From positions 1 through 30,751 of the IMG/VR virus record IMGVR_UViG_3300046616_000601: DNA of 30,751 nt; one strand, written 5' to 3'. Shown one piece after another: positions 580 through 30,751 of this stretch. The stretch comes from a virus. The position numbers and the translations under genes were made by a program. A model generated the notes under the pieces. That model saw only the letters and a list, made by a program, of their open reading frames with translations, made no database searches and was not told the DNA's origin. The stretch's first letter is position 1, and each line of letters starts with the position of its first letter.

Positions 580-915
580 TCAACCGGTTTTTCGCGAACG
601 CCTGGCGTCATTCGCGAGCTGTTCGGCACGCCATTGTTCGATCATGTGCGGACCGGGCACGTCGGGATAAGGCCCCTTCCCGGCCACGCGCCGTCCAGTG
701 AGGAGAAACTCGACGGACACTCCCGCGATCAGGGCAAACTGCTCCATCAGCGCATGCGGCATCGGGGTGCGCGATTCGTATTTGCGATAGCGCTCGGCCG
801 GCACGCCGAGCAGGGTCGACATCTGTTCTGCCGTCATCCCTCTGAGTTGGCGAAGCGCTTTCACCCTAGCGATGTAGAGCGCGTCGAATTCGTCGGGTGT
901 GATCGGATTGGTCAT
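580..915 (-). CDS. XRE-family HTH repressor (CI-like candidate)
   Basis: This is a 111-residue DNA-binding protein with one Cro/C1-type helix-turn-helix at about residues 15-72. The family pattern is visible: an RVKALRQLRGMTAEQMSTLL scanning helix, GVPAERYRKYE recognition helix, and a closing ALIAGVSVEFLLTG. It has no C-terminal peptidase (LexA-like) domain, so RecA-type self-cleavage is not expected. I chose ATG 913-915 over the TTG two codons upstream because a near-consensus promoter places the predicted transcription start exactly on that ATG (leaderless). An operator-like palindrome covers the -10 and start codon, implying autoregulation. Divergent from the HTH gene at 1208, the usual immunity-region layout. 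That it is the lysogeny repressor is inferred from context. Confidence 0.8.
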   Translation of the reverse strand: MTNPITPDEFDALYIARVKALRQLRGMTAEQMSTLLGVPAERYRKYESRTPMPHALMEQFALIAGVSVEFLLTGRRVAGKGPYPDVPGPHMIEQWRAEQLANDARRSRKTG

Positions 916-930
916 GGACAAATTGTACCA
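914..930. promoter_or_regulatory. Operator-like palindrome over repressor -10/start
   Basis: ATGGACA-AAT-TGTACCA matches 11 of 14 arm positions of the perfect palindrome at 973-989, with the same 7-3-7 geometry. It spans the -10 and the first codon of the repressor gene, so binding would shut off repressor synthesis. Confidence 0.5.
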
Positions 931-1939: not shown

Positions 1940-2069
1940 TGAGATTTTTGGGAGCGCGCGGCGAACAAATCTCCCTCGCACTTCTGAGATATAGTTCGCA
2001 AGGGCCTTGCTTCAAGACCCGCCCTTTGCCGTAAAGCCCCTGCCCCATCGATTCGCAGGGAGACGCGAT
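1940..2069. other. Intergenic leader of the monooxygenase gene
   Basis: The 130-bp gap contains the imperfect inverted repeat GAGATTT (1941-1947)/AAATCTC (1966-1972) and a TATAGT hexamer (1990-1995) without a good -35. I see no gene here. Confidence 0.3.
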
Positions 2070-3587
2070 ATGCGGGCAGAATCATCTACTTATGACTTGC
2101 GCGAGGCCGCCGACACGAAGGCGACCGATCACGCGATCGTGATTTGCGGCGGCGGGCCGACCGGGCTGATGCTGGCCGGCGAACTGGCACTGGCGGGCGC
2201 CGATGTCGCGATCGTCGAGCGGCGGGCCGATCAGCAGCTCGCCGGATCGCGCGCGGGCGGTCTGCATGCTCGATCGATTGAGTTGCTCGATCAGCGTGGC
2301 ATCGCCGACCGGTTCCTGGCCGCCGGAGAGACGATGCAGGTTACGGGCTTCGCGCTCAACCGGCTCGATATCAGCGACTTTCCCACGCGGCACAATTACG
2401 GGCTGGCTTTGTTGCAGAACCATATCGAGCGCATCCTTGCCGAATGGGTCGAGGAGTTGGGGGTGCCGACCTATCGCGCACGCGATGTGATCGGGTTTGT
2501 CGAGGATGAAGCAGGCGTCGACGTCGCATTGTCCGACGGGAGTTCGCTGCGAACCGGCTATCTAGTCGGGTGCGACGGCGGCCGCAGTTTGATCCGCAAG
2601 ACGGCGGGGATCGACTTTCCCGGCTGGGATCCCACGATCAGCAATTTGATCGCCGAGGTCGAGCTGGAAGAGGAGCCCGAATGGGGAATGCGGCGCGACG
2701 CGATCGGGCTGCACGGACTGAGCCAGATGGACGACGGCAAGACCGTGCGCGTCATGATCACCGAGCAGCGGGCAGGACGTACCGGCGATCCAAGGCTTAG
2801 CGACCTGAGCGAGGGCCTGATCGCGGTTTATGGCACCGATTACGGGGTGCACAATCCGAGCTGGATCTCGCGCTTCAGCGACACGACGCGGCAGGCGGCA
2901 ACGTATCGCAAGAGCCGGATATTGCTGGCAGGCGATGCCGCGCATGTTCATTCTCCCGACGGCGGCCAAGGCCTCAATATCGGGTTGCACGATGCGGTCA
3001 ACCTGGGGTGGAAGCTGGCACGCGTCGCCGCAGGGACGGCACCCGACAGCCTGCTCGACAGCTATCATGCCGAACGTCATCCGGTCGTCGCGCGCGTGCT
3101 GCGCAATACGATGGCGCAAGTTGCCTTGCGGCGCCCCGACGAGCGCTCCGGCGCGCTGCGCGAGATCGTCGCCGAATTGCTGGCCATGGACGAACCGCGT
3201 CGACGCGTCGCCGGAATGATGTCGGGGCTGGATGTGCAGTACGACCTTGGCGAGGGGCACGCGCTGCTCGGGAGGCGGATGCCCGACCTCGACCTGGTTG
3301 CCGCCGATGGCCCGGTGCGGGTGTTCGCATTGCTGCACGATGCGCGACCGGTGCTGATCAATCTGGGCGCGCCGGGCGCGATCAACATCTCGGCCTGGGC
3401 GGACCGGGTGAAGCTGATCGACGCTAGTTACGAAGCGGCCTGGGAGTTGCCGGTGATCGGCACAGTTCCCGCCCCGGCCGCGGTGCTGGTCCGGCCCGAC
3501 GGCCATGTCGCCTGGGTAGGAGGCGGCGGTGATAACGGGCTGGCGGAGGCGCTGACGACCTGGTTCGGGCCGGCGGCGATGGCCTAG
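2070..3587 (+). CDS. FAD-dependent aromatic monooxygenase (PheA/TfdB-like)
   Basis: A full-length (505 aa) class A flavoprotein monooxygenase, predicted to hydroxylate an aromatic or polyketide-like substrate using NAD(P)H, FAD and O2 in the cytoplasm. Visible motifs: Rossmann GxGxxG in CGGGPTG (26-32) with the ribose-binding Glu at E50; the DG motif in VGCDGGRSLIRKTAGI (about 166-181); and the GD motif in LLAGDAAHVHSPDGGQGLN (about 285-303). The C-terminal 130 residues form the thioredoxin-like domain typical of the phenol hydroxylase/rifampicin monooxygenase branch. ATG 2070 is chosen over an upstream TTG because of GGGAGA 6-8 nt before it. It sits between phage regulatory and packaging genes and ends at a strong hairpin, so it is either cargo or a host gene at a prophage border. 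The substrate is unknown. Confidence 0.85.
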   Translation: MRAESSTYDLREAADTKATDHAIVICGGGPTGLMLAGELALAGADVAIVERRADQQLAGSRAGGLHARSIELLDQRGIADRFLAAGETMQVTGFALNRLDISDFPTRHNYGLALLQNHIERILAEWVEELGVPTYRARDVIGFVEDEAGVDVALSDGSSLRTGYLVGCDGGRSLIRKTAGIDFPGWDPTISNLIAEVELEEEPEWGMRRDAIGLHGLSQMDDGKTVRVMITEQRAGRTGDPRLSDLSEGLIAVYGTDYGVHNPSWISRFSDTTRQAATYRKSRILLAGDAAHVHSPDGGQGLNIGLHDAVNLGWKLARVAAGTAPDSLLDSYHAERHPVVARVLRNTMAQVALRRPDERSGALREIVAELLAMDEPRRRVAGMMSGLDVQYDLGEGHALLGRRMPDLDLVAADGPVRVFALLHDARPVLINLGAPGAINISAWADRVKLIDASYEAAWELPVIGTVPAPAAVLVRPDGHVAWVGGGGDNGLAEALTTWFGPAAMA

Positions 3588-15338: not shown

Positions 15339-18274
15339 CCGACGCGGTGTTCATCCGGATCGTCGCCGACACATCCGGCGTGGGCGCCGCGTTGGAGGAG
15401 ATCAAGGACGGTCTGCGCGACCTGAAGAGCGTCGTTCGAGCCATGGCCGAAGGCTTTGCGCAAGGCTTCGACGGCATTCGCAATGCCGCGGCACTGGGCG
15501 AGCAGGCGATCGACGACTTCAACACCAGCCTGCGAGCTGCGAAGCCGGACGAATTTGCCTCATCCCTCAACAAGGCAACCCAATCCGCCACCGCGCATGC
15601 CAAGGCGATCAAGCAAACCGCTACCGAAGCGCGTACGGCCGCAAGCACCATCGCGGCGTTCGGCAGCGCGATCGGCGCGGCGTTCGCGATCGGCCAGCAA
15701 TTGTTCGGCGCCGGCCAGAAGGTCGCCGAGATCGCCGTCGAAATGGGCAAGGCGTCCGAGGAGACCAATAAGTTCGCCCAGCGCCTCGGTATGTCGACGC
15801 GGCAGGTACAATTGCTGCAGGCGATGTCTAAGGCGACCGGCGTCGATTTCGATAAATTGTCCAATGGCACCGCCACCTTGGCCAAGAATTTCGCCAAGAG
15901 CCCCGAAGCCTTCAAAAAGCTGGGTATCGACATCAAGGCCGGGTCGGACCAGATGACGATCCTGACCGCGGTCGCGGACAAGTTCGCCAAGACCGCCGAC
16001 GGGCCGCAAAAGACCGCGACGGCGTTCAAGCTGATGGGCAGCAGCGCGTCCGAGATGATCCCGTTCCTCAACCAGGGTGCGGACGGTCTCGCAAACCTTA
16101 CGCAAAAGGCGCAGGAATACGGCACCGTCAATGACGATGCCGTCCAGAAGGGATTGGCGCTCGCCGGTAGCGTCAACGAAGCCAAACTCGCATGGTCGGG
16201 TCTCAGCCAGACGTTGACGGCGGCTTTCGGCCCGGTGTTGAAGGAAGTGGTCGACGACTTCAATTCGATGGTGGCGGCCCTCACCAAGTCGTATGAATCC
16301 GGCGGGGCGGCTAAGATCATCTTCGATGGCCTCTCGGAAGCATTCTCGGCCCTCATCCAAATGGCGAGCGACCTGCTCGGCGGGCTGGAAGGCCTGTTTG
16401 AGGTCACCGGCGGCGACAGCGTCGACTGGAGCAAGGAGATCAAGGACACGATCGACGAGGCTGTGTCCGGCTTCAAGGAAATGATCGTCCAGATCGTCTG
16501 GTTCGTCGCGAAAACCGAGGAGCAATATTACCTTTCCCGCTACCACACCGAAACATGGTGGGCGGGCGTCAAGCAGACTTATGACGACTTCATGCTGGGC
16601 GTCGACCAGATCGTTGCCAAGGTCCAGGTGCTCGGTATGGTCGTGCAGCAAGCGCTCAACTTTCAGTGGGGGGACATTGCGGCGACCTGGGACAAGGGGA
16701 TGGCCCAGATCCAGGATGTCGTCGCGCGCCGTGGCGCAATGATCGCCGCCGAGGCCGCGAAGGCGAAGGCGGACGCTCAAAAGAACCTGCTCGATGCAGC
16801 TCTGGTCGGCATGAAATATACCGGCTGGTTCATGAATTTCATGAAACCGGGCGCGCCGGCTTCCAAGGGCATCCAGTCGAGAACCGGTGACGGTGGCGGC
16901 GGCGATAACAACGGCAAATCGTCCAAGGCCGGTCCTGCCGCAAGCAACAAGAAGAACGTGGTCGACGAGGATCGCGCCGAACTTCAGGATCGGCTGCTCG
17001 CCGAAAAGAATTGGGGCGCGAACGCGGCGCAGATCGAGTTCGATTTCTGGAAAGAGAAGCAGACCGCCGCCAATTTGGGCGCCGAGGACCTGAAGGCGAT
17101 CGACAAGGAAATCCTGAAGGCCCGGCAGGCCGCCATGAAGGAGGGCCAGCAACAGGAGATCGCCGGCATCAAGTCGACGCTTGCGATCGACATCGACGCC
17201 GCCAAAACCAAGATCGCTCTGGCCAAAGCCGGACTGCAGGACAGGCTCGACGCCATCGACGAAGAGGAGCGCGCCGGCCGGATCGGTACGGTCCAGGCGA
17301 TCACCACGCGCGCCAATCTCAACCAGCGGCTCCGGGAGCTGGATAACGATGCCGCGACGGCTGAGTATAAGGCGAAACTCGACGCGCTGGACCAAGAGCT
17401 CAAGATCGCCCATCTGAGCTATGACGTAGCCCTCGATCTCACGCGGCAGAAAACCGAGCTCGAGAAGGAATATCAGAATCGCATCCGCGTGTTGAACGCG
17501 CAGAACGCGACAGCGATGGCGAAGGATAACAACACCGCCACCGACGCGATCCGCGCCAAGTGGCAGAGCGTTTTTCAACCGGTCGTCCAAGCCTGGTCGC
17601 AGTCAATGCGGGGGATGCTCCAGGGAACCACTAACCTGCGTAAAGCCCTGCTGAGCATCGGCAGCGCGATCGAACAGGAAGCCTTCGAGTGGATCGCAAA
17701 AGTACTGACGCGGTTTTTGGTGGCAGAAGCCACTAAAACGGGCGCTGCCGAAGCAGGCGCCGCCGCGCGGAGCGGAATCGAGGAAGCGGCGTCGGTCAAG
17801 TCGATCGCCCTGAGCGCGATCACGGCGTTGAAACAGATCGTCCACCAGGCCGCGGTCGCCGCCGCCGGCGCCTATGCCGCGATCGCCCGCATTCCCTATG
17901 TCGGGCCGGTGCTGGCGCCCGCCGCGGCAGCCGCCGCGCTCTATGGGGTCTACGCGCTCGGCAAATCCGTCTTGAGCGCAGAAGGCGGCCTGGGCGAGGT
18001 ACCCTCAGACGGAACATTGATCAGCGCGCATGCCCGCGAGATGGTGCTTCCGGCCAATCTCGCCGTGCCGCTGCGGCAAATGTTGCTGTCGGGCGGCGCG
18101 GCGAACAACAATGCGCCGCGCGCGGCAAACGATGGCGGCACCGCCTTCCACTACCATGATCACGCGGGCACCCGCACGCCAGCGGACATCACGGCCAACC
18201 TCGACGCATTTGCCAGGACGATCAAGAAGGCCCACCGCGCCGGCAAGCTCGGCTTCGCGCTTCCAGCGAGTTAG
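15335..18274 (+). CDS. Tail tape measure protein
   Basis: A 979-residue tape measure protein, which sets tail length and is ejected ahead of DNA. It has helical N-terminal repeats (IRIVADTSGVGAALEEIKDG), a hydrophobic segment at about 102-128 (AAFGSAIGAAFAIGQQLFGA), and KLGIDIKAGSDQMTILTAVA and LMGSSASEMIPFLNQGADGL modules, which are the phage tape-measure core signatures. Long coiled coils at about 540-740 follow, then a second hydrophobic stretch at about 838-880 (AVAAAGAYAAIARIPYVGPV). ATG 15335 is chosen because AAGGAG (15324-15329) is 5 nt upstream and it overlaps the chaperone-extension stop. At about 0.15 nm per residue such a protein would correspond to a tail near 150 nm. The stop overlaps the opposing gene by four bases. 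Confidence 0.9.
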   Translation: MTDAVFIRIVADTSGVGAALEEIKDGLRDLKSVVRAMAEGFAQGFDGIRNAAALGEQAIDDFNTSLRAAKPDEFASSLNKATQSATAHAKAIKQTATEARTAASTIAAFGSAIGAAFAIGQQLFGAGQKVAEIAVEMGKASEETNKFAQRLGMSTRQVQLLQAMSKATGVDFDKLSNGTATLAKNFAKSPEAFKKLGIDIKAGSDQMTILTAVADKFAKTADGPQKTATAFKLMGSSASEMIPFLNQGADGLANLTQKAQEYGTVNDDAVQKGLALAGSVNEAKLAWSGLSQTLTAAFGPVLKEVVDDFNSMVAALTKSYESGGAAKIIFDGLSEAFSALIQMASDLLGGLEGLFEVTGGDSVDWSKEIKDTIDEAVSGFKEMIVQIVWFVAKTEEQYYLSRYHTETWWAGVKQTYDDFMLGVDQIVAKVQVLGMVVQQALNFQWGDIAATWDKGMAQIQDVVARRGAMIAAEAAKAKADAQKNLLDAALVGMKYTGWFMNFMKPGAPASKGIQSRTGDGGGGDNNGKSSKAGPAASNKKNVVDEDRAELQDRLLAEKNWGANAAQIEFDFWKEKQTAANLGAEDLKAIDKEILKARQAAMKEGQQQEIAGIKSTLAIDIDAAKTKIALAKAGLQDRLDAIDEEERAGRIGTVQAITTRANLNQRLRELDNDAATAEYKAKLDALDQELKIAHLSYDVALDLTRQKTELEKEYQNRIRVLNAQNATAMAKDNNTATDAIRAKWQSVFQPVVQAWSQSMRGMLQGTTNLRKALLSIGSAIEQEAFEWIAKVLTRFLVAEATKTGAAEAGAAARSGIEEAASVKSIALSAITALKQIVHQAAVAAAGAYAAIARIPYVGPVLAPAAAAAALYGVYALGKSVLSAEGGLGEVPSDGTLISAHAREMVLPANLAVPLRQMLLSGGAANNNAPRAANDGGTAFHYHDHAGTRTPADITANLDAFARTIKKAHRAGKLGFALPAS

Positions 18275-18900
18275 AGCGGAGTCCGCTTGGCGGATTGGGC
18301 CGCGTCACCTGCGTTCGCCAGGCGATCATATTCGTCGGTGGAAACAAGAAGTTCGCCCGCTCTGACACTGCTGGCGACGGACTGATAATCGACCGTGAAC
18401 CCGCTGCGTTTCCAGACGACGTGCTTGGCCAATACCGAAATCTTACCGACGATCCGGCGATCCTCGTCGGCCGAGGTCGGTTTGCCGAACTTGGCGGTTA
18501 GCTGAGCGATAATGTAAGCGGCGCCCTCGTAGCCGGGTGTCGCAGCTTCTATCGCGATGACCTTGTCGCTGCCCTTCGAAAAATACACCCCTATCATGTT
18601 GGCGGTGCTGAGCTCGGGAGTCTGCTCGCGAGTGAAGACCACAGCCCCCTTCCTGAGGGCCGCCCAGCCCAATTCGTACGGCTGTTGAACGCAAGTCACC
18701 GGTTGCTCCATCTCATAGGCGGGCACGCCGTCGGAACCGGCGGGCACACCCTCCATGTGTCGGCATTCCGGCAGCGTCACGGGCGCGCCCAATTGCAGGC
18801 CGAACACCGACGGGAGCGTTTGTGCGCTTGCCGCACCAGCCGACAGGCAAGCCGCGGGCAACAGTAACCATTTGATCTTGCGCTTTACTCTACCGACCAT
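18271..18900 (-). CDS. Exported protein of unknown function
   Basis: A 209-residue protein with a clear Sec signal peptide: basic VGRVKRKIK, hydrophobic WLLLPAACLSAGAA, and a likely cleavage after ASA before QTLPS. The mature part has paired Cys (PECRH and VTCVQQ, probably disulfide bonded) and LQLGAPVTLPEC, a motif I associate with small exported proteins of proteobacteria but cannot name. Later segments (GYEGAAYIIAQLTAKFGKPT) look like one alpha/beta domain. ATG 18898-18900 is preferred to the GTG two codons upstream. It is the only minus-strand gene between tape measure and tail-tip genes and overlaps the tape measure stop, so it is a likely accessory (moron) gene expressed from its own promoter. 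The function is unknown. Confidence 0.7.
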   Translation of the reverse strand: MVGRVKRKIKWLLLPAACLSAGAASAQTLPSVFGLQLGAPVTLPECRHMEGVPAGSDGVPAYEMEQPVTCVQQPYELGWAALRKGAVVFTREQTPELSTANMIGVYFSKGSDKVIAIEAATPGYEGAAYIIAQLTAKFGKPTSADEDRRIVGKISVLAKHVVWKRSGFTVDYQSVASSVRAGELLVSTDEYDRLANAGDAAQSAKRTPL

Positions 18901-19188
18901 AACCACCCCGCCATGCCTGTTCCGTGAAGTGCGACGCTACCATCCGGCCGGCGCATCGCAAGAGGGCCCGCGCGTCGATAGATCGAAAACGGAGCAAAAA
19001 GCTTCCCGCTTACCGTGACGGAGGCGACGGCTGCCACCGGCAAACCACGCCGCCAAGGACCCACCTGCCGTGCTGAAATCGCGAACCGGGACGCATTTGC
19101 GCGGACCGCGTCAGCGACGCTGCGACGGCAACGGCCTCGGCCCGATGGCACCCGACAACCAGCGCAGCCTATCCGATTGGAGACGAGA
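18901..19188. other. Intergenic region upstream of DUF2460 gene
   Basis: This 288-bp region should carry the promoter of the exported-protein gene and the leader of the DUF2460 gene. I see no confident -35/-10 pair on either strand. An extension of the DUF2460 frame upstream to GTG 19015 is possible, but its sequence is Arg-rich and not domain-like. Confidence 0.4.
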
Positions 19189-20714: not shown

Positions 20715-21139
20715 CGCGCGAGGATGTAGTGCGCGAGGCACTCGGCTGGGAAGGAACGCCGTACCATCATCGGGCGCGGTTGCGCGGCGTCGGGGTCGAC
20801 TGCGCGATGCTGCCGGCGGCGGTCTATGAAGCGGTCGGGCTGATCCCGCGGGTCGAGCCCGATTACTCGCCGCAATGGATGCTGCATCGGGACGAGGAGC
20901 AGTTCCTGGGCTGGGTCACGCGGTTCGCGCGCGAGATTCCGCGCGAGGCTGTCGGGCCCGGCGACCTGGCGATCTGGAAATACGGTCGCTGTTATTCGCA
21001 CGCGGCGATCGTCATCGACCTGCCCGAAGTGCTGCACGCCGTGATCCGCGGCGGCGGCGTGGTGCGCGGGAATGCCGATCGCGACGAGGAGTTGTGTTCC
21101 CGGCCGGTCAAATTCTTCACCCTGTTCGAGGATCAATGA
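20711..21139 (+). CDS. NlpC/P60 tail peptidase (GTA gp14-like)
   Basis: A 142-residue cysteine peptidase of the NlpC/P60 group, likely cutting peptidoglycan stems during DNA injection. The catalytic Cys is in GVGVDCAMLPAAV (C31) and the His in YGRCYSHAAIVIDL (H97). Family members usually have a small residue plus Gly after the Cys; here Ala-Met replaces it, which is unusual. The protein also carries a WEGTPYHHRARL start typical of phage forms. Start ATG 20711 overlaps the upstream stop and its own stop overlaps the next ATG, a fully coupled cluster. Confidence 0.85.
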   Translation: MTREDVVREALGWEGTPYHHRARLRGVGVDCAMLPAAVYEAVGLIPRVEPDYSPQWMLHRDEEQFLGWVTRFAREIPREAVGPGDLAIWKYGRCYSHAAIVIDLPEVLHAVIRGGGVVRGNADRDEELCSRPVKFFTLFEDQ

Positions 21140-24135
21140 TGGGCGGCAAGTCTACCTCGACCACATCGCCGAAGCTCAACGGGCTGCAGGTCCAATCGTC
21201 CACCCTAGGTCTACCCATATCTCTGGGTTGGGGCCGCGGGCGGATGAGGTGCAATCTGATGTGGTACGGCGCCTTCACGGCGATCGCGCACACCACCAAG
21301 ACCAGCGGCGGCAAGGGTCTGGGTGGTGGGTCGAAGAACACGACCTATACCTACACCGCGTCGATCATGATGGGCATTTGCGAGGGCGGAGCCGGCGGCA
21401 TCCGGGGCATTCGCACGATCTACAAGGACACGGCCGTGCTGACCTCGCTGTCGGCCGCCGGGTTGAGCCTGGCGACCGGCACGCCGACGCAGCCCGTGTG
21501 GAGCTACCTGACCTCCAAAGTTCCGGCGCAGGCGATCCCCTATAGCGGCATCGCTTACGTCTATGCCCAGGATTACGACCTCGCCGACAGCGCGACGCTG
21601 TCGAATCACAGTTTCGAAATCGACTTCGGCGTGCAGCTGAGCGGTGTCGCGAACGGCGATGCCGATCCGAAGGACATCATCACCGATTTCCTGATCAACC
21701 CCGCTTACGGCGTGCCGATGTGGGGATCGGGCCTGATCGGCGATCTGTCCGATTATTCGCTCTATTGCCGCGCCAACAACTTGCTCTTGTCGCCGGTGCT
21801 CGAATCGCAGTCGGGCGCAGCGTCGATCCTGGAGGAGTGGCTGATCGCGACGAACTCGGCCGCCTTCTGGTCCGAGGGCATGCTCAAGATCCGGCCCTAT
21901 GGCGACGCACCGGCATCCGGCAACGGCGTCACCTGGAATCCGAACCTCACGCCCGCTTATGACCTGACCGAGGACGATCTGATCGTCGACGACAACGGCA
22001 ATGCCGTGTCGATCGAGATCGTCGACCAATCGGACGCCTATAATATCGTCCAGTTCGAATTCCTGGACCGCAGCCAGCAATATAATGTCGGCATCGCGAC
22101 CGCTCAGGACCTGGACAACATCGTCACATTCGGGCGGCGCAAACAGGATCCGACGACCGTCCATTGCATCTGCGACGCCGACATCGCGCGCAAGGCGGTG
22201 CAGCTTTATGCCCAGCGCGTTCTCTACACGCGCGAGAAATATACGTTCAAGCTACCGTGGAACTTCGCGCTGCTCGAGCCGACCGATCTCGTCACGCTGA
22301 CGACGACGACCGATTCACTGCTGCTCGATCGCGTGCTGGTCCGGATCACTGAGATTGGCGAGGACGTCGACGGGTTGCTGGCGATCACGGCGGAAGGCGT
22401 CCCCATCGGCATTGCCTCGGCCGCGCTCTATGCCTCGCACTCCGGTTCTAACGGATACAAGTCGAACACCGATATCGCGCCTGGACCGGTGTCGGCGCCC
22501 TGGCTGTTCATTGCGCCACCGAACCTTGCCGGGCTCGATGCCGAGATGTGGGTGGCTACCGCGTCGACGTCGCCGACCTGGGGCGGCTGTCAGGTTTGGG
22601 TCAGCACCGACGGGGCCAATTATTCGATGGTCGGTACGATCAACGGCCCGGCGCGCTATGGCACGCTCACCTCGGCGCTGGCGGCGGGCGCCGATTCGGA
22701 TACGACGAACACGCTGGCTGTCGATCTGTCGGCCAGCTTGGGGCAACTCGACAGCGTCAGCACATCGGATCGTGACGCCGGGGTCACCTTGTGCATGGTC
22801 GGCGACGAAGTGGTGTCCTATCGGACGGCAACCCTGACGGCAGCCAACCGCTATAACCTGACCCAGCTGCGCCGCGGCCAGCGCGGTACGATCTCTGGCG
22901 CGCATGCCAGTGGGACCAACTTCGCGCGGATCGACGATGCGATCTTCAAGTTCGGCTATGACGCCAGCAATGTCGGCGACACGATTTACGTCAAGCTTCC
23001 CTCGTTCAACATCTACGGCCGTGGACTCGAGGATCTTGCCGCGGCCACCGCTTATTCGATCGCGATCAGCTCGGCGCCGGCGCGCGCTGGCTATCGCGAC
23101 ATCAAGTTCATGCGTTCCTATGCGCAGCCACCGACACCCAACGGCGATAATCCGTCGGGTTGGTATGACGGGATACCGGCGGGCACGGCGACGATCTGGT
23201 CGAGCACGGCGCTCAAGACGGCGAACGGAACATTGTTGGGCATCTGGACTGCGCCTCAATCGCTGTCCGGCCTGACGCCCCGCGGCGATTACAGCAGCGG
23301 CGCGACCTATTTCCTGAATAACAGCGTCGCTTATGGCGGCGGCAGCTATGTCGCGACGCAGGACAATTTCAGCGGCCATGCACCGACCGGCACCGGCCAG
23401 GCCAATGCATATTGGGACGTGCTGGCCGCACCCGGCAGCGCCGGGGCGCCGGCCGTGCCGCCCGGGGCATTTACCGCAACGATCAGCGTTCCGTCAGGAT
23501 CGGCGGTCAACCTGCGATCCTTGGCCGATACCGCCGGCTATACCGGCAATTCGGACGCGACGGTGACGTTCAACGTCCCCAATGGCGTCAACGTCACCGG
23601 GCTGGCGAGCGGCGGCATCGGCATCGACACGGGTAGCTGGCCGACCACATCCCATACGATCGCGCTGACACTGGTCGTCCAGAACGGCGGATCGGTTAGC
23701 GGCGGCGGGGGTGACGGCGGGAGCGGCGGCGGTGCAGGTTTGCCAGGCGGCGACGCTATCTATGTCCGGGTACCGATGTCGGGCGGGATCACGATCAACG
23801 CCGGCGGCGCGGTGCGCGGCGGCGGCGGTGGTGGTGGCTCGAACGCGATGACTTCGCCGTACAAGATCGGAACCGGCGGCGGCGGCGGCGGTGCGCCGAA
23901 CGGCCAAGGCGGCGCCGGCAGCGAGGGCTACATCACGACCGGCACCGACGGCCGGGACTGGTCAGCGGGCGGCGCCGGCGGCTCGCCAGGCGGCGGCGCG
24001 GGCGGCGGCTATGCGACGGCGGGCAGCGCATCAGGCAGCGGAACGCCCGGCGGCGGTGCCGGCTTCGCGATCCGCAAGAACGGCAACGCGGTTACCGTCA
24101 CTAACAACGGCACGATGACCGGATCCGCCGCGTAA
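21136..24135 (+). CDS. Tail tip/host-recognition protein (GTA gp15 relative)
   Basis: A 999-residue central tail-tip protein. The N-terminal 500 residues contain the Phage-tail_3-like core (SDAYNIVQFEFLDRSQQYNV, IARKAVQLYAQRVLYTREKY then TFKLPWNFALLEPTDLVTL). Middle beta modules follow (LAGLDAEMWVATAS, YNLTQLRRGQRGT). At about 712-768, RGDYSSGATYFLNNSVAYGG then YVATQDNFSGHAP, NAYWDVLA resembles a CBM5/12-like carbohydrate-binding module. Residues about 850-975 are a polyglycine domain with GGGGGGG runs like the polyglycine II loops of some phage adhesins. It lacks the TIM-barrel seen in the larger GTA gp15. Start ATG 21136 overlaps the NlpC stop. The C-terminus probably forms the receptor-binding tip. 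Confidence 0.82.
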   Translation: MMGGKSTSTTSPKLNGLQVQSSTLGLPISLGWGRGRMRCNLMWYGAFTAIAHTTKTSGGKGLGGGSKNTTYTYTASIMMGICEGGAGGIRGIRTIYKDTAVLTSLSAAGLSLATGTPTQPVWSYLTSKVPAQAIPYSGIAYVYAQDYDLADSATLSNHSFEIDFGVQLSGVANGDADPKDIITDFLINPAYGVPMWGSGLIGDLSDYSLYCRANNLLLSPVLESQSGAASILEEWLIATNSAAFWSEGMLKIRPYGDAPASGNGVTWNPNLTPAYDLTEDDLIVDDNGNAVSIEIVDQSDAYNIVQFEFLDRSQQYNVGIATAQDLDNIVTFGRRKQDPTTVHCICDADIARKAVQLYAQRVLYTREKYTFKLPWNFALLEPTDLVTLTTTTDSLLLDRVLVRITEIGEDVDGLLAITAEGVPIGIASAALYASHSGSNGYKSNTDIAPGPVSAPWLFIAPPNLAGLDAEMWVATASTSPTWGGCQVWVSTDGANYSMVGTINGPARYGTLTSALAAGADSDTTNTLAVDLSASLGQLDSVSTSDRDAGVTLCMVGDEVVSYRTATLTAANRYNLTQLRRGQRGTISGAHASGTNFARIDDAIFKFGYDASNVGDTIYVKLPSFNIYGRGLEDLAAATAYSIAISSAPARAGYRDIKFMRSYAQPPTPNGDNPSGWYDGIPAGTATIWSSTALKTANGTLLGIWTAPQSLSGLTPRGDYSSGATYFLNNSVAYGGGSYVATQDNFSGHAPTGTGQANAYWDVLAAPGSAGAPAVPPGAFTATISVPSGSAVNLRSLADTAGYTGNSDATVTFNVPNGVNVTGLASGGIGIDTGSWPTTSHTIALTLVVQNGGSVSGGGGDGGSGGGAGLPGGDAIYVRVPMSGGITINAGGAVRGGGGGGGSNAMTSPYKIGTGGGGGGAPNGQGGAGSEGYITTGTDGRDWSAGGAGGSPGGGAGGGYATAGSASGSGTPGGGAGFAIRKNGNAVTVTNNGTMTGSAA

Positions 24136-24169: not shown

Positions 24170-26299
24170 ATGCAATATTACGAGTTCATCGCCTCCCGCG
24201 GCGACACGGGAGCCGTGTTGCCGCTCGCCAAGGTCACCGTGTTTCTGGCAGGCACGACGACGCTGGCAGCGGCCTATGATAGTACGGGTGCCGGCCTGGC
24301 GAATCCGATGACGGCGGCGCCTTCCGGCCTGGTTGGGTTTGCGGCGGCCAATGGCGCCTATGACGTTCAGATTGCGTCGGCGGACGGGTCGTATCTCGCG
24401 CCGAAGGTCCACGATCTCCAGCTGTATGACCTGACCCAGTTGGACGCGAAGGTGGCATCGGTCACGGCGGCGACAACCGCTCCAGGGTTCGTCGCGGTCG
24501 TCGCCGACCTGGCGCTCGGCGCAGCGAGTAAGATCGGGACGGTGGCGGCGGACTTGTTGAGCGGCGCCAGCAACATAGCGTTGGTGGCGGCCGACCTGGC
24601 GCTAGGCGGCGCATCGCTGATCAGGCAGGCGATATCGAGCGCATCGGCTGCGGCAGCTTCTGCCGCTGCTGCGGCGGCGAGTGCTGCCTCGATCGGGTGG
24701 TTCTCCCGTGGGCCTGCCGGTTTCGCGCTCACTGATGTGGCGGGCTATCGCTGGCTCAACATCACACTCACGGACATCAAGCACTTCGCAATCGACCTGA
24801 TCAAATCGCGATTGGCGGCCCTAGAAGCCTATACTGCCAAGCTGCCGTTGATCGGCACGCCCGGCGGCGCCACCTTTTCGCTGGTCGATAGCAACGGCTA
24901 CAATTGGCTGAAGGCGACCCCGACCACTTTGCAGCACAAGGTCATCGAGGCGATGTCGAGTCGGATTGTGGCGGCTCTTCGTGGACCGGCCGATCCGTCG
25001 ATCGCGAACATGCGCATTATTGCTGAGCGCATCGGCCTGCATATGTCTGGCGAATCACTGTCGCTGGGGCATGGCTCGCCGGTCGTAACCGTGGGCACAA
25101 GTACGATATCAGATATGTTTGGCAATGCCTCGCTCACGAAAGCCAGCATCGTCCCGGATGACATCAGTGACATCTCGATCGCGTCAGATCCCGACCTAAT
25201 CTCGAACCGCGCCGCGCTCACGCCGACCGTTGAAACCAGCTACGGAGCCGACGCCGACGACTGGACGAGCCACGGCGAAACACCACTGACCGGCTGCGCG
25301 CAGATGATTGTGCAGCTTCTCAAGGATGAGGACGGTATCGACTTCACGGAGGCCGGAATGCGCTTCCTGCTCGCCGACGATGGCCGAAATGGCGGCAGCA
25401 TCACGACCGAAGACGAAACACTGACCGGGCTGACGGCGCAACGCGTCTACGCGAGCTTCGGACAGGCGCAGGCACTCTACAGCGCACTCGGCAAGTCGTA
25501 TGCCCCGGCGGCGCAGATGATCATCACTGGCACGAACGACAATGCTTCAGACAGCGCCAACTACCCCGGCGGCGCCGACACCAAGTGGTTCTACACCCGC
25601 GCGCAGACCGTCCAGGCTCAGCGCCAAGCGAAGGCCATTGCCCTAAAACTCATCAGCCCGAATGGGCGGCTGCCGCTCCTGATCGGCCAAACGGCGACGC
25701 ACACAAACCCGTCCTATCTCGCGCCGATCCCACACGTCGCGCTCGATCAGCTACAACTCGCGATCGATCACCCCGAATTCATTCTCGCCTGCATTCAGTA
25801 CGCGGTGCAGAACGGGATCAATAACGATGTTCACATGACCGGCGCCGGCAGCAAGCAAATGGGTGCCTATTTCGGCTGGCACCTCAAGCGTCTGATGTTT
25901 GACGGTCTGCGCATCGCGCCGATGATCCCAACGTTCACGGCGCAAAATTCGCAGATCATCGCGACGTTCCCAATCCGTCCGGGCCACACAATTACGGGCG
26001 GCCTGACCATCGCCGACACTACGATTCTTTCGAATTGGGGCGTTGCTGCGGTCGATTCCGGCGGCGTCGCGAAATCGCTGAGCAACCCTCGCGTCGTCGC
26101 TCGCGATCGTATCGTCTGGGACGCGCCCGCAGCCCCTGCCAATACTTGGAAATTTCGCTGCGGCTATACAGGCAACAGCACAAAGGGGTGGACCAACATC
26201 GCCGAAACCCGCGCCGATTCCGCACTCATCTTCGATCCCTATGCCCTGCGCCTGCCGATGTATCGCTGGCTGCCTATTTGTGAGGTGCCCCTGACATGA
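24170..26299 (+). CDS. Tail fibre with SGNH-type esterase domain
   Basis: A 709-residue tail fibre/spike. Residues 1-75 (PLAKVTVFLAGTTTLAAAYD then NPMTAAPSGLVGFAAANGAY) match the N-terminal virion-attachment domain of many fibres, followed by an Ala-rich coiled coil (about 155-175). The C-terminal half carries SGNH/GDSL-type blocks: GESLSLG with S296 as nucleophile, GTND at 454-457, and DVHMTG with D553 and H555, plus LPLLIGQTATH. This pattern is that of sialate O-acetylesterase-like, glycan-deacetylating fibre domains. The predicted role is removing acyl groups from a host surface polysaccharide. The start follows AAAGGACTGG. The stop overlaps the next gene by ATGA. Confidence 0.78.
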   Translation: MQYYEFIASRGDTGAVLPLAKVTVFLAGTTTLAAAYDSTGAGLANPMTAAPSGLVGFAAANGAYDVQIASADGSYLAPKVHDLQLYDLTQLDAKVASVTAATTAPGFVAVVADLALGAASKIGTVAADLLSGASNIALVAADLALGGASLIRQAISSASAAAASAAAAAASAASIGWFSRGPAGFALTDVAGYRWLNITLTDIKHFAIDLIKSRLAALEAYTAKLPLIGTPGGATFSLVDSNGYNWLKATPTTLQHKVIEAMSSRIVAALRGPADPSIANMRIIAERIGLHMSGESLSLGHGSPVVTVGTSTISDMFGNASLTKASIVPDDISDISIASDPDLISNRAALTPTVETSYGADADDWTSHGETPLTGCAQMIVQLLKDEDGIDFTEAGMRFLLADDGRNGGSITTEDETLTGLTAQRVYASFGQAQALYSALGKSYAPAAQMIITGTNDNASDSANYPGGADTKWFYTRAQTVQAQRQAKAIALKLISPNGRLPLLIGQTATHTNPSYLAPIPHVALDQLQLAIDHPEFILACIQYAVQNGINNDVHMTGAGSKQMGAYFGWHLKRLMFDGLRIAPMIPTFTAQNSQIIATFPIRPGHTITGGLTIADTTILSNWGVAAVDSGGVAKSLSNPRVVARDRIVWDAPAAPANTWKFRCGYTGNSTKGWTNIAETRADSALIFDPYALRLPMYRWLPICEVPLT

Positions 26300-27243
26300 G
26301 AGTCGCCATCCCCTTCACCGGCATCGACGCTTCCGCGTTTGGCTATGGGCGCACGCGCTCATGCCCGACTTTCGGCGCAGGCTACGCGGCCTACATGTTC
26401 GGCACGGCTATTAACGACGCGCCGACGGTCAACCTGTTCACGGGCGCTAACGATGGCCGGCTGATCGGCGCGCCTGCGGCGATAGGCCTGGTTGGCGGCG
26501 CAATGGCGATCGCGTTCAGCGGCGCCATCACCGGCGGCAATCTCCTGACAGTCACCGGCACGGTATCCGGCGACCCTCTTGCGGTCGGTCAAACGATCGA
26601 ATTGGCGACTGGCGCAGGAGGAAGTCTCGGGGTCATTTCGTCGCTCGGCACCGGTACCGGTGGCGCGGGAACTTACAACTTGACCGGAGGCGTTAATACA
26701 ACCTCGTCGTCGATGCGCGCCTTCACTCGATTTTTTGAGGTGCCTGGCTTCTCGCGTGACATATTTAATATCGGCAGTGCCCTAACACTCCTGGCCATCT
26801 ACAAATCGCCGATCTCGCAGGGCATTTTGATGGACGACTTCAACGGCGGCAATCTTGGCATGCTGGTTCCGTCGTCGTTCGATGTGCAGACCTTCGGCCG
26901 CGATAGCGCGAGCGTCGTCGTCAATGTCAGTACGGCTTCGAGCTTCAGCAACGGGGGGACGACGTGGAGCATGGGTGTCTCGCAATTTGACACCACCACT
27001 GGGCAAGGCTTCATCCAGCGGTCGGGACCGGCCCGCAATGCGTCCGCTGTTGCCGGTCCGCGCGCCGCGAACCCGATGGGCCAAACTACCCGGAAGCTGC
27101 GCACGCACCTCTACACAGCTACGACGCCTGCGGCAACAATCGCGGGCATCGCGATTTATACCAAGAAGTTGTCGAGCGGCGAAATGGACGACGCCTTCAG
27201 TTACTGGCGCGATGTTCTGTCCGATGTGGGAGAAGTACTGTAG
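26296..27243 (+). CDS. Second tail fibre-like protein
   Basis: A 315-residue protein, mostly beta-rich with Gly/Thr/Ser repeats (GAITGGNLLTVTGTVSG, SSLGTGTGGAGTYNLTGGV). It opens with an AIPFTGIDASAFGYGR segment and ends AIYTKKLSSGEMDDAFSYW, similar to LamG/concanavalin-like carbohydrate-binding domains. Coupled to the esterase fibre by ATGA overlap, it may bind the same glycan or act as a chaperone/adaptor. The domain is only suggested. The last 43 bp overlap, on the opposite strand, the FkbM gene. Confidence 0.65.
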   Translation: MRVAIPFTGIDASAFGYGRTRSCPTFGAGYAAYMFGTAINDAPTVNLFTGANDGRLIGAPAAIGLVGGAMAIAFSGAITGGNLLTVTGTVSGDPLAVGQTIELATGAGGSLGVISSLGTGTGGAGTYNLTGGVNTTSSSMRAFTRFFEVPGFSRDIFNIGSALTLLAIYKSPISQGILMDDFNGGNLGMLVPSSFDVQTFGRDSASVVVNVSTASSFSNGGTTWSMGVSQFDTTTGQGFIQRSGPARNASAVAGPRAANPMGQTTRKLRTHLYTATTPAATIAGIAIYTKKLSSGEMDDAFSYWRDVLSDVGEVL

Positions 27244-28058
27244 CCCTCAGGGATGACGAGATAGTCCCCAATAGGTAAGATCTCGGCATTATGCTCGACT
27301 AGCACCGTCTTATTGAGGAACGCGCCCTTGCGGCTCGTATACAGCATTAACCGGAATGGGACCGGAACTAGCTCGGAGAGGGCCGACCTGGTCGGCGTAT
27401 GGAGAGTAGTCTCGCTGATCTCCAGCCAGATCAGCGGGCGGTTGGCAATGATCGTCTCGCGGAGACCGCGGAGCACGTTCGGTTCGTATCCCTGTACGTC
27501 TATCTTGATTGCATCAACGGCGATGCCGCGCAATTCTTCGTCCCCAATAGCAATGCGCGCGCTAAGGCGATGAGCGTTGTCCAGTTCTCCGTCGAGAAAC
27601 GTGGATAGGCCATGGTTGTCGTTGACGAAGATCGGCAAGTCGGCAACCGCGACCCCCAATCCAACTTTGCGCAATTCGACCTTCGCCCAAGGGTTGATCG
27701 CGATATTCCGCTCGATCAGAGGCCAAACCTGCGGATTTGGCTCGAAGGAGATCACACGATTGAAATGACGAGCGAACGCTAGCGCGTGGTTCCCGATGTT
27801 CGCGCCGACGTCGGCGATCGTACCGCGCCGAGTTGCCTGGGCCAGGAACGGCGTGATTTGTTGCCAGTCGTATGATCCGTAGAGATAAGCTTCGCGGTCG
27901 ATGGCCGACTTCAGGTTGCCGGCGAAGCGAACCTCGCCCCGCTGGGATTCGAAATCGACGTCGTACTTCGCGAGTTTGGTGGCGATAGCAGACCAGCCAC
28001 GAACGTGGCGCATGAAGCCGAGAGACTTGGCGAGTTTGGCAGAAAGCGGCACCGTCAT
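27201..28058 (-). CDS. FkbM-family methyltransferase
   Basis: A 285-residue SAM-dependent methyltransferase of the FkbM type, which O-methylates sugars of surface polysaccharides. The SAM motif I is IADVGANIGNHALAFARHF and the diagnostic FkbM motif is IKIDVQGYEPNVLRGL, with AINPWAKVELRKVGLG and VISFEPNPQVW between them. ATG 28058 is used; GTG 28082 would add 8 residues, and neither has a strong Shine-Dalgarno. It is transcribed opposite to the phage structural genes, immediately behind the acyltransferase gene (about 51 bp), so the two form a small operon. Its last 14 or so codons lie inside the fibre gene, giving an extra non-domain tail. Base composition is visibly more A/T rich than the head genes, a sign of later acquisition. 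Confidence 0.85.
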   Translation of the reverse strand: MTVPLSAKLAKSLGFMRHVRGWSAIATKLAKYDVDFESQRGEVRFAGNLKSAIDREAYLYGSYDWQQITPFLAQATRRGTIADVGANIGNHALAFARHFNRVISFEPNPQVWPLIERNIAINPWAKVELRKVGLGVAVADLPIFVNDNHGLSTFLDGELDNAHRLSARIAIGDEELRGIAVDAIKIDVQGYEPNVLRGLRETIIANRPLIWLEISETTLHTPTRSALSELVPVPFRLMLYTSRKGAFLNKTVLVEHNAEILPIGDYLVIPEGYSTSPTSDRTSRQ

Positions 28059-28109
28059 GAGGTGACAGCCTATCAGCGACACTGCGTTCGGCCAATGAAA
28101 ATTGCACCC

Positions 28110-29174
28110 TTAGAATGTGCGGTCGGCGACTTCTTTGATGGCAGATGGTGTCATGCGTACACGCGACCGAATCCACTCGCGCATAGGTTCCTCGTATCCG
28201 AGGAACATCACGACTGATAGCGCGAGTAGCGCCGGGTATTGGATCGCGACAATCGCCTTATCGGCGCCGATCCATGTCTTGATGGCGAAGTGAACTGGCT
28301 GGTGGAGCAGATAAAGAGAGTAACTCGCACCACCCATGATGACGAGCCACCGCAGGGAAAGCACTCGCGCAAACCGGCTCTCGCGGTTCGCCGAAACTGA
28401 GGCAATCAAGAGCCCCGACATAACGGTGACGAAAGGTCCAACATGCGAGTCGCCGGTCTGACACAGCACGAGGACGAGGGTCGAAGCAACGAGCCACGCC
28501 GGTAGCCGGACCATAGCACCACGCATGTGCAATTCCGCGACGCAAATCCCGATGATGAATTCCGGTAAGCGCAGGATCGGCGCCGGCACCCATTTCATCC
28601 ACGCGAACGGACCCAGGTCGCCGCTAATGAAGGTTGAGCTTTCGGTAATTGCCGCAAACGCGACCAAGCAGATCGCGCAGGCTGTGACGGCCTTCGTCGG
28701 CATATGCTCGACGCAGCGCGAGAGCAGCGGGAAACACAGGTAGAAGAAGAACTCCACCGAGAGTGTCCAGCTCGGCATATTCCAGCATGTGATGCCAAGC
28801 GAGCTATCCTGCACCCACCAATGCAATAGAAAAAACTGCGGTAGGTCGCCCCAGCCGGAGATAGTCACGAAAGGCAGCATTAGGGCGATGGTGAGGAAAT
28901 AGACCGGGTAAACTCGAGCCAATCTCGCAACCGCAAATTTCTTCACCTGCGCGCCTGAGCAGACCCGACCGCGATGCGTGTAATGCAGTATGAAGCCAGA
29001 CAGCACGAAAAAGAACGTCACGCCTGAATAGCCGTTCATAAGCAACGTTTTGAGGAACGATGGGAAGTGCGCAGACTTCGAGGCGAAGGATGCGCCTGAA
29101 TGATACAAAACGACGGCGAAAGCTGCAAAAAAACGGATGCTGGTCAGCGGCTCAATAAGGTTGCGATCGGACAT
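28110..29174 (-). CDS. Acyltransferase-3 family membrane protein (OafA-like)
   Basis: A 354-residue integral membrane acyltransferase of the acyltransferase-3 group, which O-acylates LPS or exopolysaccharide sugars. Diagnostic motifs: SIRFFAAFAVVLYHSG at the N-terminus with the catalytic His, GYSGVTFFFVLSGFILHY, RLARVYPVYFL, and WNMPSWTLSVEFFFYLCFPL, with about ten hydrophobic segments. It lacks the extra C-terminal SGNH domain of longer OafA forms. It is first in the minus-strand operon with the FkbM gene, downstream of the tail fibres. Such genes in prophages commonly change O-antigen (serotype conversion) and block further infection, which is the inferred role here. ATG 29172-29174 is used. 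The substrate sugar is unknown. Confidence 0.87.
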   Translation of the reverse strand: MSDRNLIEPLTSIRFFAAFAVVLYHSGASFASKSAHFPSFLKTLLMNGYSGVTFFFVLSGFILHYTHRGRVCSGAQVKKFAVARLARVYPVYFLTIALMLPFVTISGWGDLPQFFLLHWWVQDSSLGITCWNMPSWTLSVEFFFYLCFPLLSRCVEHMPTKAVTACAICLVAFAAITESSTFISGDLGPFAWMKWVPAPILRLPEFIIGICVAELHMRGAMVRLPAWLVASTLVLVLCQTGDSHVGPFVTVMSGLLIASVSANRESRFARVLSLRWLVIMGGASYSLYLLHQPVHFAIKTWIGADKAIVAIQYPALLALSVVMFLGYEEPMREWIRSRVRMTPSAIKEVADRTF

Positions 29175-29260
29175 CGCCCGTGCCCCTAGCCGCTACAAGC
29201 CGCCTACGAAAGTCGCAACAACATCCGCCTCTCAGTCCCACCGATCGTGAGTACCCACCA

Positions 29261-29527
29261 ATGACCACGCCTGCCAAAGCCCCGCCCACTTGGCTGGCGT
29301 GGCTTCCCGTCATCACGACGGTGTTCCTGATCGCCGGCTTTCTGCTGTCGACCGGCGGCAAGATCAACGAGCTGACAGATCACGAACGCCGCCTGACCGC
29401 TCTGGAAACGCGCCGCGATACCGACGCGGACAAGCTCGACAAGATCAATGAACGGACGGCGCGCATAGAGGCGAAGCTGGAGGTGATCCTGCCCAGCGGC
29501 ACCGCCGCAAAGGAGGTGGCGAGATGA
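29261..29527 (+). CDS. Membrane-anchored coiled-coil protein
   Basis: An 88-residue protein with one N-terminal membrane helix (about 11-31, WLAWLPVITTVFLIAGFLLS) followed by a charged coiled coil (about 35-75, INELTDHERRLTALETRRDT). This topology fits an inner-membrane spanin-like or holin-associated protein, but no lipobox partner gene is seen, so it may simply be a lysis accessory. Start ATG 29261 is used rather than the longer upstream frame because it begins the clean anchor. It is first in the lysis block. Confidence 0.65.
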   Translation: MTTPAKAPPTWLAWLPVITTVFLIAGFLLSTGGKINELTDHERRLTALETRRDTDADKLDKINERTARIEAKLEVILPSGTAAKEVAR

Positions 29528-29775
29528 TGGAGGGCGCAGGACTGCTCCTGATGACGCTGGCGTTCGGCCTGATGCTGGTCCCGCCGCTTCACATCACGAT
29601 CGCCGGCCCCCGCATCGGCGCCGTTCATGTCGCGGCCGAATTACCTGAATCGCACCAATTGACGCCACCTCGCGCCGACATGGACGCCCTTATCCGCGAG
29701 GCCGACAAAGTGCTCGCCAACGACCTGCTGATCCGCGCGATCGCCGCGATCGCCGAGACCTACAACCAAGCCTGA
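29524..29775 (+). CDS. Small one-TM protein in lysis block
   Basis: An 83-residue protein with one hydrophobic N-terminal segment (about 4-28, GAGLLLMTLAFGLMLVPPLH) and a soluble helical C-terminus (ADMDALIREADKVLANDLLI). The start ATG overlaps the previous stop (ATGATG at 29524; the second ATG is an alternative), so it is coupled to the coiled-coil gene. It could act as an antiholin- or spanin-like accessory, but no motif proves this. Confidence 0.6.
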   Translation: MMEGAGLLLMTLAFGLMLVPPLHITIAGPRIGAVHVAAELPESHQLTPPRADMDALIREADKVLANDLLIRAIAAIAETYNQA

Positions 29776-29808: not shown

Positions 29809-30093
29809 ATGACCCTGCTATGCAAATGGTGGGCGCCGCTCCGCGCCCGCCTGATCGATGATGCACGCTTGTGGTGGCGCTTCTGGACCATGCGCCTGGC
29901 GGCGTTCGGGGCCATCGTCACCGCGTTGGCACAGTGGTTCCCCGACGCGCTCTCTGCCGCATGGAATGCCATGCCGTACGACATGCGGGCGTATCTTCCC
30001 GCACCCATGCTCCACTCGATCCCCGTGATCCTGTTCGTCGCCATCATGGTGGCGCGCATCGTGGCGCAGAAGAAGGCGGCGCCCAATGACTGA
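29809..30093 (+). CDS. Holin
   Basis: A 94-residue holin-like protein, forming the timed holes that trigger lysis. Hydrophobic segments lie at about 29-48 (AAFGAIVTALAQWFPDAL) and 66-88 (MLHSIPVILFVAIMVARIVA), with an aromatic amphipathic stretch before the first (WWRFWTM) and a short charged tail (KKAAPND). This layout and the position directly upstream of the endolysin fit alphaproteobacterial phage holins. ATG 29809 follows GGAGGA by 4 nt. Overlaps the endolysin start by 8 bp. Confidence 0.78.
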   Translation: MTLLCKWWAPLRARLIDDARLWWRFWTMRLAAFGAIVTALAQWFPDALSAAWNAMPYDMRAYLPAPMLHSIPVILFVAIMVARIVAQKKAAPND

Positions 30094-30751
30094 AGGCGTC
30101 GACAACTTCATTGAAAGCTACGCGGCGGGGCGTCCCGGATGGGCCAGCAAGGGCGCCATCGCCGCGGCCGTCGCGGTCATTCTTGCCGGCGTCTATGCCG
30201 TCGAGGGCGGCTATGTGAACGACGCCCGCGATCCCGGCGGCGCAACGAGCTACGGCGTCACCGAGCAAGTCGCTCGCGACTATGGGTACCGCGGCGACAT
30301 GCGCCGGTTCCCGCAGCATTGCGACGGCCCCGCGACGATTTGCGCCGATGCCGTCTATGTGCGGAGCTACATCGCCGCGCCTGGCTATATGCCGCTGGTG
30401 GAGATCGAACCCGCCGTTGCGGGTGAGTTGATCGATACTGCGGTCAATATGGGGCCGCGGCGACCCAATCGCTGGTACCGGCTGACAATGAAGGCGCTGG
30501 GTGACGCGCGCCTGCCGGACAGCGCGGCGCCATTGGGCCCTATCGACGTGGCGGCATATCGGATGCTCCAGGCAAAGCTCGGCGTCATCCCCGCTTGCAC
30601 CGCGACGCTCGACGCGCTCGATGCGCGGCAAGCGGCGGAATATCGTCGGCTTGCCACCGCCAATCCCAAGCTTCGGGCCTTTCTCAAAGGATGGCTCCGG
30701 AACCGGATCGGCAATGCCGATCGCCGATCCTGCGGCAAGGGAGACGGCTGA
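30086..30751 (+). CDS. GH108 endolysin, signal-anchor (SAR) type candidate
   Basis: A 221-residue muramidase of glycosyl hydrolase family 108. The catalytic motif AVEGGYVNDARDPGGATSYG has E40 followed after eight residues by D49 and then T54, like the lysozyme Glu-Asp-Thr triad. The C-terminal half has the PG-binding-3 pattern (LIDTAVNMGPRRPNRWYRLT, LQAKLGVIPACT). A weakly hydrophobic Ala/Gly-rich helix (about 22-39) sits immediately before the catalytic Glu, the arrangement of signal-anchor-release endolysins, in which the enzyme is tethered inactive and later released. Two Cys pairs (C79/C86 and two near the C-terminus) may form disulfides. Start ATG 30086 overlaps the holin. The stop is the last codon of the window. 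Confidence 0.85.
   Translation: MTEGVDNFIESYAAGRPGWASKGAIAAAVAVILAGVYAVEGGYVNDARDPGGATSYGVTEQVARDYGYRGDMRRFPQHCDGPATICADAVYVRSYIAAPGYMPLVEIEPAVAGELIDTAVNMGPRRPNRWYRLTMKALGDARLPDSAAPLGPIDVAAYRMLQAKLGVIPACTATLDALDARQAAEYRRLATANPKLRAFLKGWLRNRIGNADRRSCGKGDG

Follow-up and report, generated by a model that had tools for sequence, protein, structure and literature searches.

Organization of the locus

The window considered here, that is, the whole stretch of DNA that was analysed, is a viral record in full and measures 30,751 bases. Read from the left, it encodes a repressor-like protein, a FAD mono-oxygenase, the terminase, portal, capsid and tail proteins, a large tail protein, and a tail fibre. 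Behind the fibre lie ORF315 and, on the opposite strand, the genes for an FkbM-family methyltransferase and an acyltransferase-3 (AT3) protein, after which two small genes, a holin and an endolysin run rightward again. The features of interest are the following:

583-921, minus strand: repressor-like gene of the XRE type, at the left edge of the window (phrog_2328, 6.6e-7)
2007-3587, plus strand: FAD mono-oxygenase (FAD-dependent aromatic-ring hydroxylase) gene, adjoining the terminase genes
18271-18906, minus strand: gene with a signal-peptide-like start, between the tape measure and tail genes
20875-24135, plus strand: large tail protein ahead of the fibre, belonging to the constant backbone (phrog_1101, 1e-108; PF13550, PF23666)
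24170-26299, plus strand: tail fibre, 709 amino acids
26296-27243, plus strand: ORF315, between the fibre and the AT3/FkbM pair, its ATG overlapping the fibre stop codon
27201-28082, minus strand: FkbM-family SAM-dependent methyltransferase, 293 amino acids, second in the leftward pair (PF05050, 2.8e-11, 44 vs 22.7 bits)
28110-29174, minus strand: AT3 (OafA-like) membrane acyltransferase, 354 amino acids, leading the leftward pair (PF01757, 5.9e-31, 108.2 bits vs a cut-off of 31)
29258-29775, plus strand: two small genes with which the rightward late block resumes, the right border of the exchanged cassette
29812-30751, plus strand: holin and GH108-type endolysin (phrog_1356, PF05838)

The preliminary description of this DNA had the reading frames and coordinates of the fibre, AT3, and FkbM genes right, but placed the opposite-strand pair directly behind the fibre, a position taken in fact by ORF315. 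This gene is 65-99% identical in other cassettes of the same type, and a short gene of similar size is also found behind SASA-type fibres in the Vibrio phage VvAW1 and in several Sphingomonadaceae prophages. ORF315 has no match in Pfam or NCBIfam, and its assignment as a LamG/ConA domain was rejected for want of Pfam support; it is a probable second adhesin.

Two further genes of the window lie outside this region. The hydroxylase at 2007-3587 is found in the same place, with 89-93% identity, in five long viral records and in the prophage of a Sphingomonas metagenome-assembled genome (MAG), and is apparently a metabolic gene borne by these phages. The gene at 18271-18906, with a 61% identical counterpart in the MAG prophage (L118), is probably a further surface or secreted moron.

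The tail fibre

The first 180 residues of the fibre form its conserved attachment part, and residues ~272-709 hold a predicted SASA-like SGNH esterase domain followed by a C-terminal domain. The protein matches the tail fiber family phrog_4201 of PHROGs (1e-24, residues 259-703), has no direct match in Pfam or NCBIfam, and does not reach the gathering score of PF03629 (SASA), the sialic-acid acetylesterase family of the SGNH superfamily, also known as CE6. Among named phage proteins, the tail fibre of VvAW1 (YP_007518382.1) comes closest (BLASTP 4e-22; 28% identity over 426 columns), and it clears the Pfam SASA cut-off itself (28.7 vs 24.8 bits). When a profile of the fibre class was compared with a profile of eight other phage fibres, six of which match SASA, hhalign returned an E value of 2.2e-29 over 381 columns, against 0.24-0.59 for nine column-shuffled or reversed profile controls. 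Judged by these comparisons, the SGNH-type homology of the fibre is firm, and its predicted membership in the superfamily is transitive, passing through the SASA-type phage fibres.

The putative active-site residues lie in three blocks, located where the preliminary description had put them:

25055-25057, plus strand: Ser296 codon in block I (GESLS); the Ser is invariant and falls opposite the catalytic Ser of GQS when aligned to SASA-type fibres
25529-25540, plus strand: codons of G454-T455-N456-D457 in block III (GTND), in place of the QGExD of the SASA relatives; invariant in the fibre class
25826-25834, plus strand: codons of D553-V554-H555 in block V; the His is invariant and the Asp stands at -2 instead of -3

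The four residues that give the SGNH superfamily its name, S296, G405, N456, and H555, are all invariant in this fibre class, over 76-98% identity. S296, G405, and H555 align with conserved residues of the relatives, whereas N456, which sits within GTND, does not. The relatives keep GQS, (x)GE, and DxxH in the alignment, but here the Gln before the catalytic Ser is replaced by Glu (GES for GQS) and (H)QGE by TGT(ND). The signature residues of SASA proteins (the Gln next to the Ser, QGE, and the Asp of DxxH) have been set out before (PMC9487903), and it is because GES and TGTND replace them that the fibre is filed as a divergent relative of the family, as far as its residues tell, and not as a member of it. 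The SGNH-type fibre of the preliminary description thus stands as far as homology is concerned, but its block V departs from the expected pattern: D553 precedes the His by two positions, is Asn in one relative (L013), and the residue at -3 is N, T or L throughout the class. The missing Asp at -3 does not bar the fibre from the superfamily, since SGNH enzymes without a block V Asp, such as those with Ser-His dyads and NanS, are reported (PMC9487903). The GESL and GTND pair resembles the classical GDSL/GxND pattern, and a changed oxyanion arrangement with retained activity is a reasonable guess from the motifs. Since the SASA hallmarks are replaced and D553 is both displaced and variable, catalysis is rated as likely and no higher.

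Structure prediction added little to this picture. AlphaFold models of the domain, built on 11 and 14 sequences, were of low confidence (pLDDT 35 and 42, pTM 0.33 and 0.51), and fold searches with them gave no significant match in two libraries, the top, non-significant entries being 8zbc, which we take to be an SGNH/GDSL-type structure, and a GDSL-like lipase of phage nickie. A PDB sequence search with the fibre profile returned chance matches only, and few or no distant relatives were obtained from viral contigs for a deeper alignment.

The acyltransferase and methyltransferase pair

The identification of the two opposite-strand genes as an AT3 acyltransferase and an FkbM methyltransferase was confirmed. 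Besides its Pfam match, the AT3 protein matches the O-acetyltransferase family phrog_3333 (5e-45) and carries the R-x10-H motif of acyltransferase-3 proteins (PMC9558356) as R14 to H25 in the first membrane helix, kept in all full-length relatives. A simple hydropathy scan gives roughly 8-10 membrane segments, the family having about ten helices. The FkbM protein matches TIGR01444 (7e-25, 88 bits vs a cut-off of 37.7), and its SAM-binding motif DVGANIG, at residue 91, is intact. AT3 comes first in the pair, 27 bases ahead of FkbM, which in turn overlaps ORF315 by 43 bases at their 3' ends. The GC content of both genes is 56-58%, compared with 61-66% in the neighbouring genes. In the pairs of sequences compared, dN/dS is 0.06-0.16 for AT3 and 0.07-0.22 for FkbM; neither gene is disrupted, and purifying selection acts on both. 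Scanning the leftward pair for promoters and terminators gave results at chance level, with no good promoter, and a DNA-level search of phages for the conversion region gave no match.

Relatives and host

The fibre search yielded 26 viral loci, and the scan of bacterial genomes pointed to two hosts, Sphingomonas asaccharolytica NBRC 15499 and the Sphingomonas MAG, where the copy lies inside a 1.26-Mb contig. The viral locus L007 agrees with the NBRC 15499 locus (L110) in its cassette values, and the two were counted once. The cassette is rare, being present in 2 of 295 Sphingomonas genomes. The neighbours to the right of the lysin differ between the two host genomes, which fits integration at different places; a second AT3 gene is found just beyond the right end of the prophage in the MAG (L118 2280-3437). 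The best explanation for the window is a temperate siphophage of Sphingomonas: its relatives reside in the chromosome, as the temperate context assumed from the outset would have it, and the window itself holds a repressor-like gene, with no integrase recognised among the genes scanned in its 30.7 kb.

Exchange of the cassette and replacement of AT3 alleles

Every viral locus with a fibre of this type that reaches far enough downstream carries AT3 (11 of 11), and eight of the 11 carry FkbM. With the MAG locus added, the counts are 12/12 for AT3 and 9/12 for FkbM among traceable loci, although L003, L004, L005, and L014 are near-identical, so that the independent cases are fewer than 12. Three other loci (L019-L021) match this type in the first ~153 residues of the fibre and in the tail protein (87-93% identical), but have another fibre end and another type of AT3. 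A third fibre end occurs with the AT3 type of L019-L021 in L026, and without AT3 in L022, L024, and L025. The tail protein of the backbone is up to 93% identical between phages of this and the other types even though the cassette differs, and the two small genes at 29258-29775 are conserved across loci with differing fibre cassettes. The fibre end, ORF315, and AT3/FkbM are moving between near-identical phage backbones as one cassette. The link between fibre and AT3 is strong for this fibre type and looser beyond it: among Sphingomonas prophages of the same group, G179, with a plain fibre, shows no AT3 in the genes seen at that place, and G049, with a SASA-type fibre, also lacks one.

The alternative fibre ends of L019 (8001-11033) and L026 (3846-6938) are homologous to each other (E 7e-11) and contain GxSH and DxTH motifs, a hint of another SGNH-like group. 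Profile comparison of the L019-L021 and L022-L026 fibre classes with the class of the window and with SASA fibres found no homology, and they are not claimed as SGNH enzymes, GxSH and DxTH being motif-like only.

The AT3 proteins behind the fibres of this type fall into three groups. The first consists of L003, L005, L008, L010, L011, L013, L014, and L109, mutually 69-99% identical; the second of L006 and L009 (80%); and the third of the window and L007 (57%). FkbM accompanies the first group and the window. Between groups, AT3 identity is 48-62%, compared with 76-93% for the fibre ends of the same phages. Fast evolution of AT3 as the source of this low identity was rejected in favour of allele replacement, because synonymous divergence between groups ranges from 2.3 to saturation in AT3, far above the values for the fibre (about 1) and the lysin (about 0.2-0.4), and is ordinary within groups. 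This replacement, which puts alleles of ~50% identity behind fibres of ~90% identity, argues against a strict one-to-one tuning of AT3 to the fibre. In phages with a synonymous divergence of only about 0.2 in the lysin (30086-30751), the fibre end (24950-26299) has diverged to near 1, which implies that the history of the cassette is older than, or separate from, that of the backbone.

Outside this family the association recurs less regularly. In Sphingomonadaceae genomes, AT3 lies within 5 kb of 4 of the 16 genes for phrog_4201-type fibres, with 0.39 expected (p 0.0004); the value becomes 0.004 if the two prophages of the window's type are counted once and about 0.04 if they are left out, and none of these p values takes account of morons being common in prophages generally. 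L152, a separate Sphingomonadaceae prophage, has a SASA fibre with a convergent AT3 gene directly behind it and an integrase beside. SASA-type fibres without AT3 are found in G049, VvAW1, Klebsiella phi5.2, and most Sphingomonadaceae cases.

A proposed host-surface cassette and its alternatives

The explanation favoured here, to which we give slightly better than an even chance, is that of a host-surface cassette, in which a glycan-binding and probably de-esterifying fibre is coupled to a lysogenic-conversion pair acting at some site that is not the target of the esterase. The fibre of the virion would bind, and probably de-esterify, a surface glycan. In the lysogen, the leftward unit, with the AT3 O-acyltransferase followed by the FkbM O-methyltransferase, would alter the glycan from inside, and the altered glycan would exclude phages that use it. 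The activity of the enzymes, the expression of the pair in the lysogen, the glycan, and the exclusion are inferred. Acylation would most likely take place at a position other than the one that the esterase clears, since remaking the substrate of the esterase would restore the receptor and not hide it. The acetylases of Sf6 (Oac; PMC9558356) and PhiV10 (oac; PMC11854483) block their own phages, and conversion by phage acetylases has precedents in Sf6, BTP1, and PhiV10 (PMC9558356, PMC11854483). Coliphage G7C, with its esterase spike gp63.1, requires the O-acetyl group, and unacetylated mutants are fully resistant to it (PMC10743462). Acylation, together with methylation, at another site of the glycan is the reading that would fit both sets of facts. 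The preliminary description had the lysogen acylate the same glycan to mask the receptor; so worded, the proposal does not agree with the requirement of G7C, nor with AT3 alleles that vary behind a near-constant fibre; the target of AT3 would need to be a different position or a different sugar.

The main rival regards AT3 and FkbM as a generic moron that occupies a recombination hotspot where tail and lysis genes meet and that changes the host surface for its own benefit, against competitor phages or stress, with no functional tie to the chemistry of the fibre. Physical linkage by itself would make neighbours travel together, AT3 alleles have been swapped independently of the near-constant fibre, and FkbM comes and goes. 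The same phages carry other morons elsewhere, such as the FAD mono-oxygenase; an AT3 gene stands beside a beta-helix tailspike in TL-2011b; and beyond this family AT3 is only weakly enriched near SASA fibres (p about 0.04). Yet AT3 has been retained in all 12 cassettes of this type despite the replacement of its alleles, the other fibre class (L019-L021) brings its own AT3, and the convergent layout appears again in L152 and in Arthrobacter phage Hum25, all of which counts against the generic moron, a reading that we rate as rather unlikely.

A tie of another kind, in which AT3 adds the very acyl group that the fibre removes, would make the two a write-erase pair that sets and clears a single glycan mark, is passed on as a block, and is re-tuned when AT3 alleles are exchanged; lysogens would make the receptor, and released virions, in the manner of receptor-destroying enzymes, would strip it from sister cells and debris. 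Opposite chemistries are encoded side by side and recur in unrelated phages, and G7C needs the acetyl group that it removes (PMC10743462), but one fibre type is followed by AT3 alleles of ~50% identity, which would need to share a product, and the surface of the lysogens would stay open to superinfection, so that we consider this improbable. Either view of the pair is compatible with the fibre domain having evolved from a SASA esterase into a lectin without catalytic activity. With GQS changed to GES, QGE to GTN, and the block V Asp displaced and variable, all in positions conserved in the relatives, the fibre could be binding-only. All four naming residues are nevertheless retained, their invariance over 76-98% identity suggests use, and SGNH enzymes lacking the block V Asp are reported (PMC9487903); we hold the loss of activity to be rather unlikely.

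Comparison with known systems

Prophages with SGNH esterase fibres and prophages with acetyltransferases have each been described. A limited literature search found no description of a tight cassette in Sphingomonas phages that joins a SASA-like fibre with changed active-site residues to ORF315, FkbM, and an AT3 gene whose alleles are exchanged. A study of Klebsiella prophages proposed that acetylation and deacetylation interact when phages compete, but showed no linked genes (PMC13123978); a linked pair in one exchanged block, in the named type strain S. asaccharolytica NBRC 15499, offers a direct test bed for that idea. The fibre may also be a naturally occurring SGNH esterase in which the SASA signature residues have shifted together toward the classical GDSL/GxND arrangement.

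The fibre resembles G7C gp63.1, the SGNH fibres of Klebsiella prophages (PMC13123978), and those of the Pectobacterium phages PP99 and Possum, which are SGNH-type esterase fibres or spikes acting, or predicted to act, on an O-acetylated surface glycan. It differs from SASA-type relatives in lacking GQS, QGE, and DxxH, in that its esterase is putative, and in the Sphingomonas host. VvAW1 is similar in having a related fibre domain followed by a short ORF, but the 12 features annotated around its fibre include neither AT3 nor FkbM. The combination of a receptor-acting virion protein and an AT3 enzyme in one phage is shared with the seroconverting temperate phages Sf6 (Oac), PhiV10 (oac), and TL-2011b (gp48-gp49), the last a coliphage. 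The latter has the same order of spike, AT3 O-acetyltransferase, holin, and endolysin, but its spike looks like a beta-helix glycanase and not an esterase, and the AT3 gene of the window runs on the opposite strand and is accompanied by FkbM and ORF315. A parallel in an unrelated host is found in the temperate actinobacteriophage Hum25 (L192 3989-7228), where the gene for a GDSL esterase converges with that for an AT3 O-acetyltransferase (gp26-gp27) beside the holin and endolysin. The esterase there belongs to another SGNH family, the AT3 is fused to an SGNH domain, and the host is Gram-positive.
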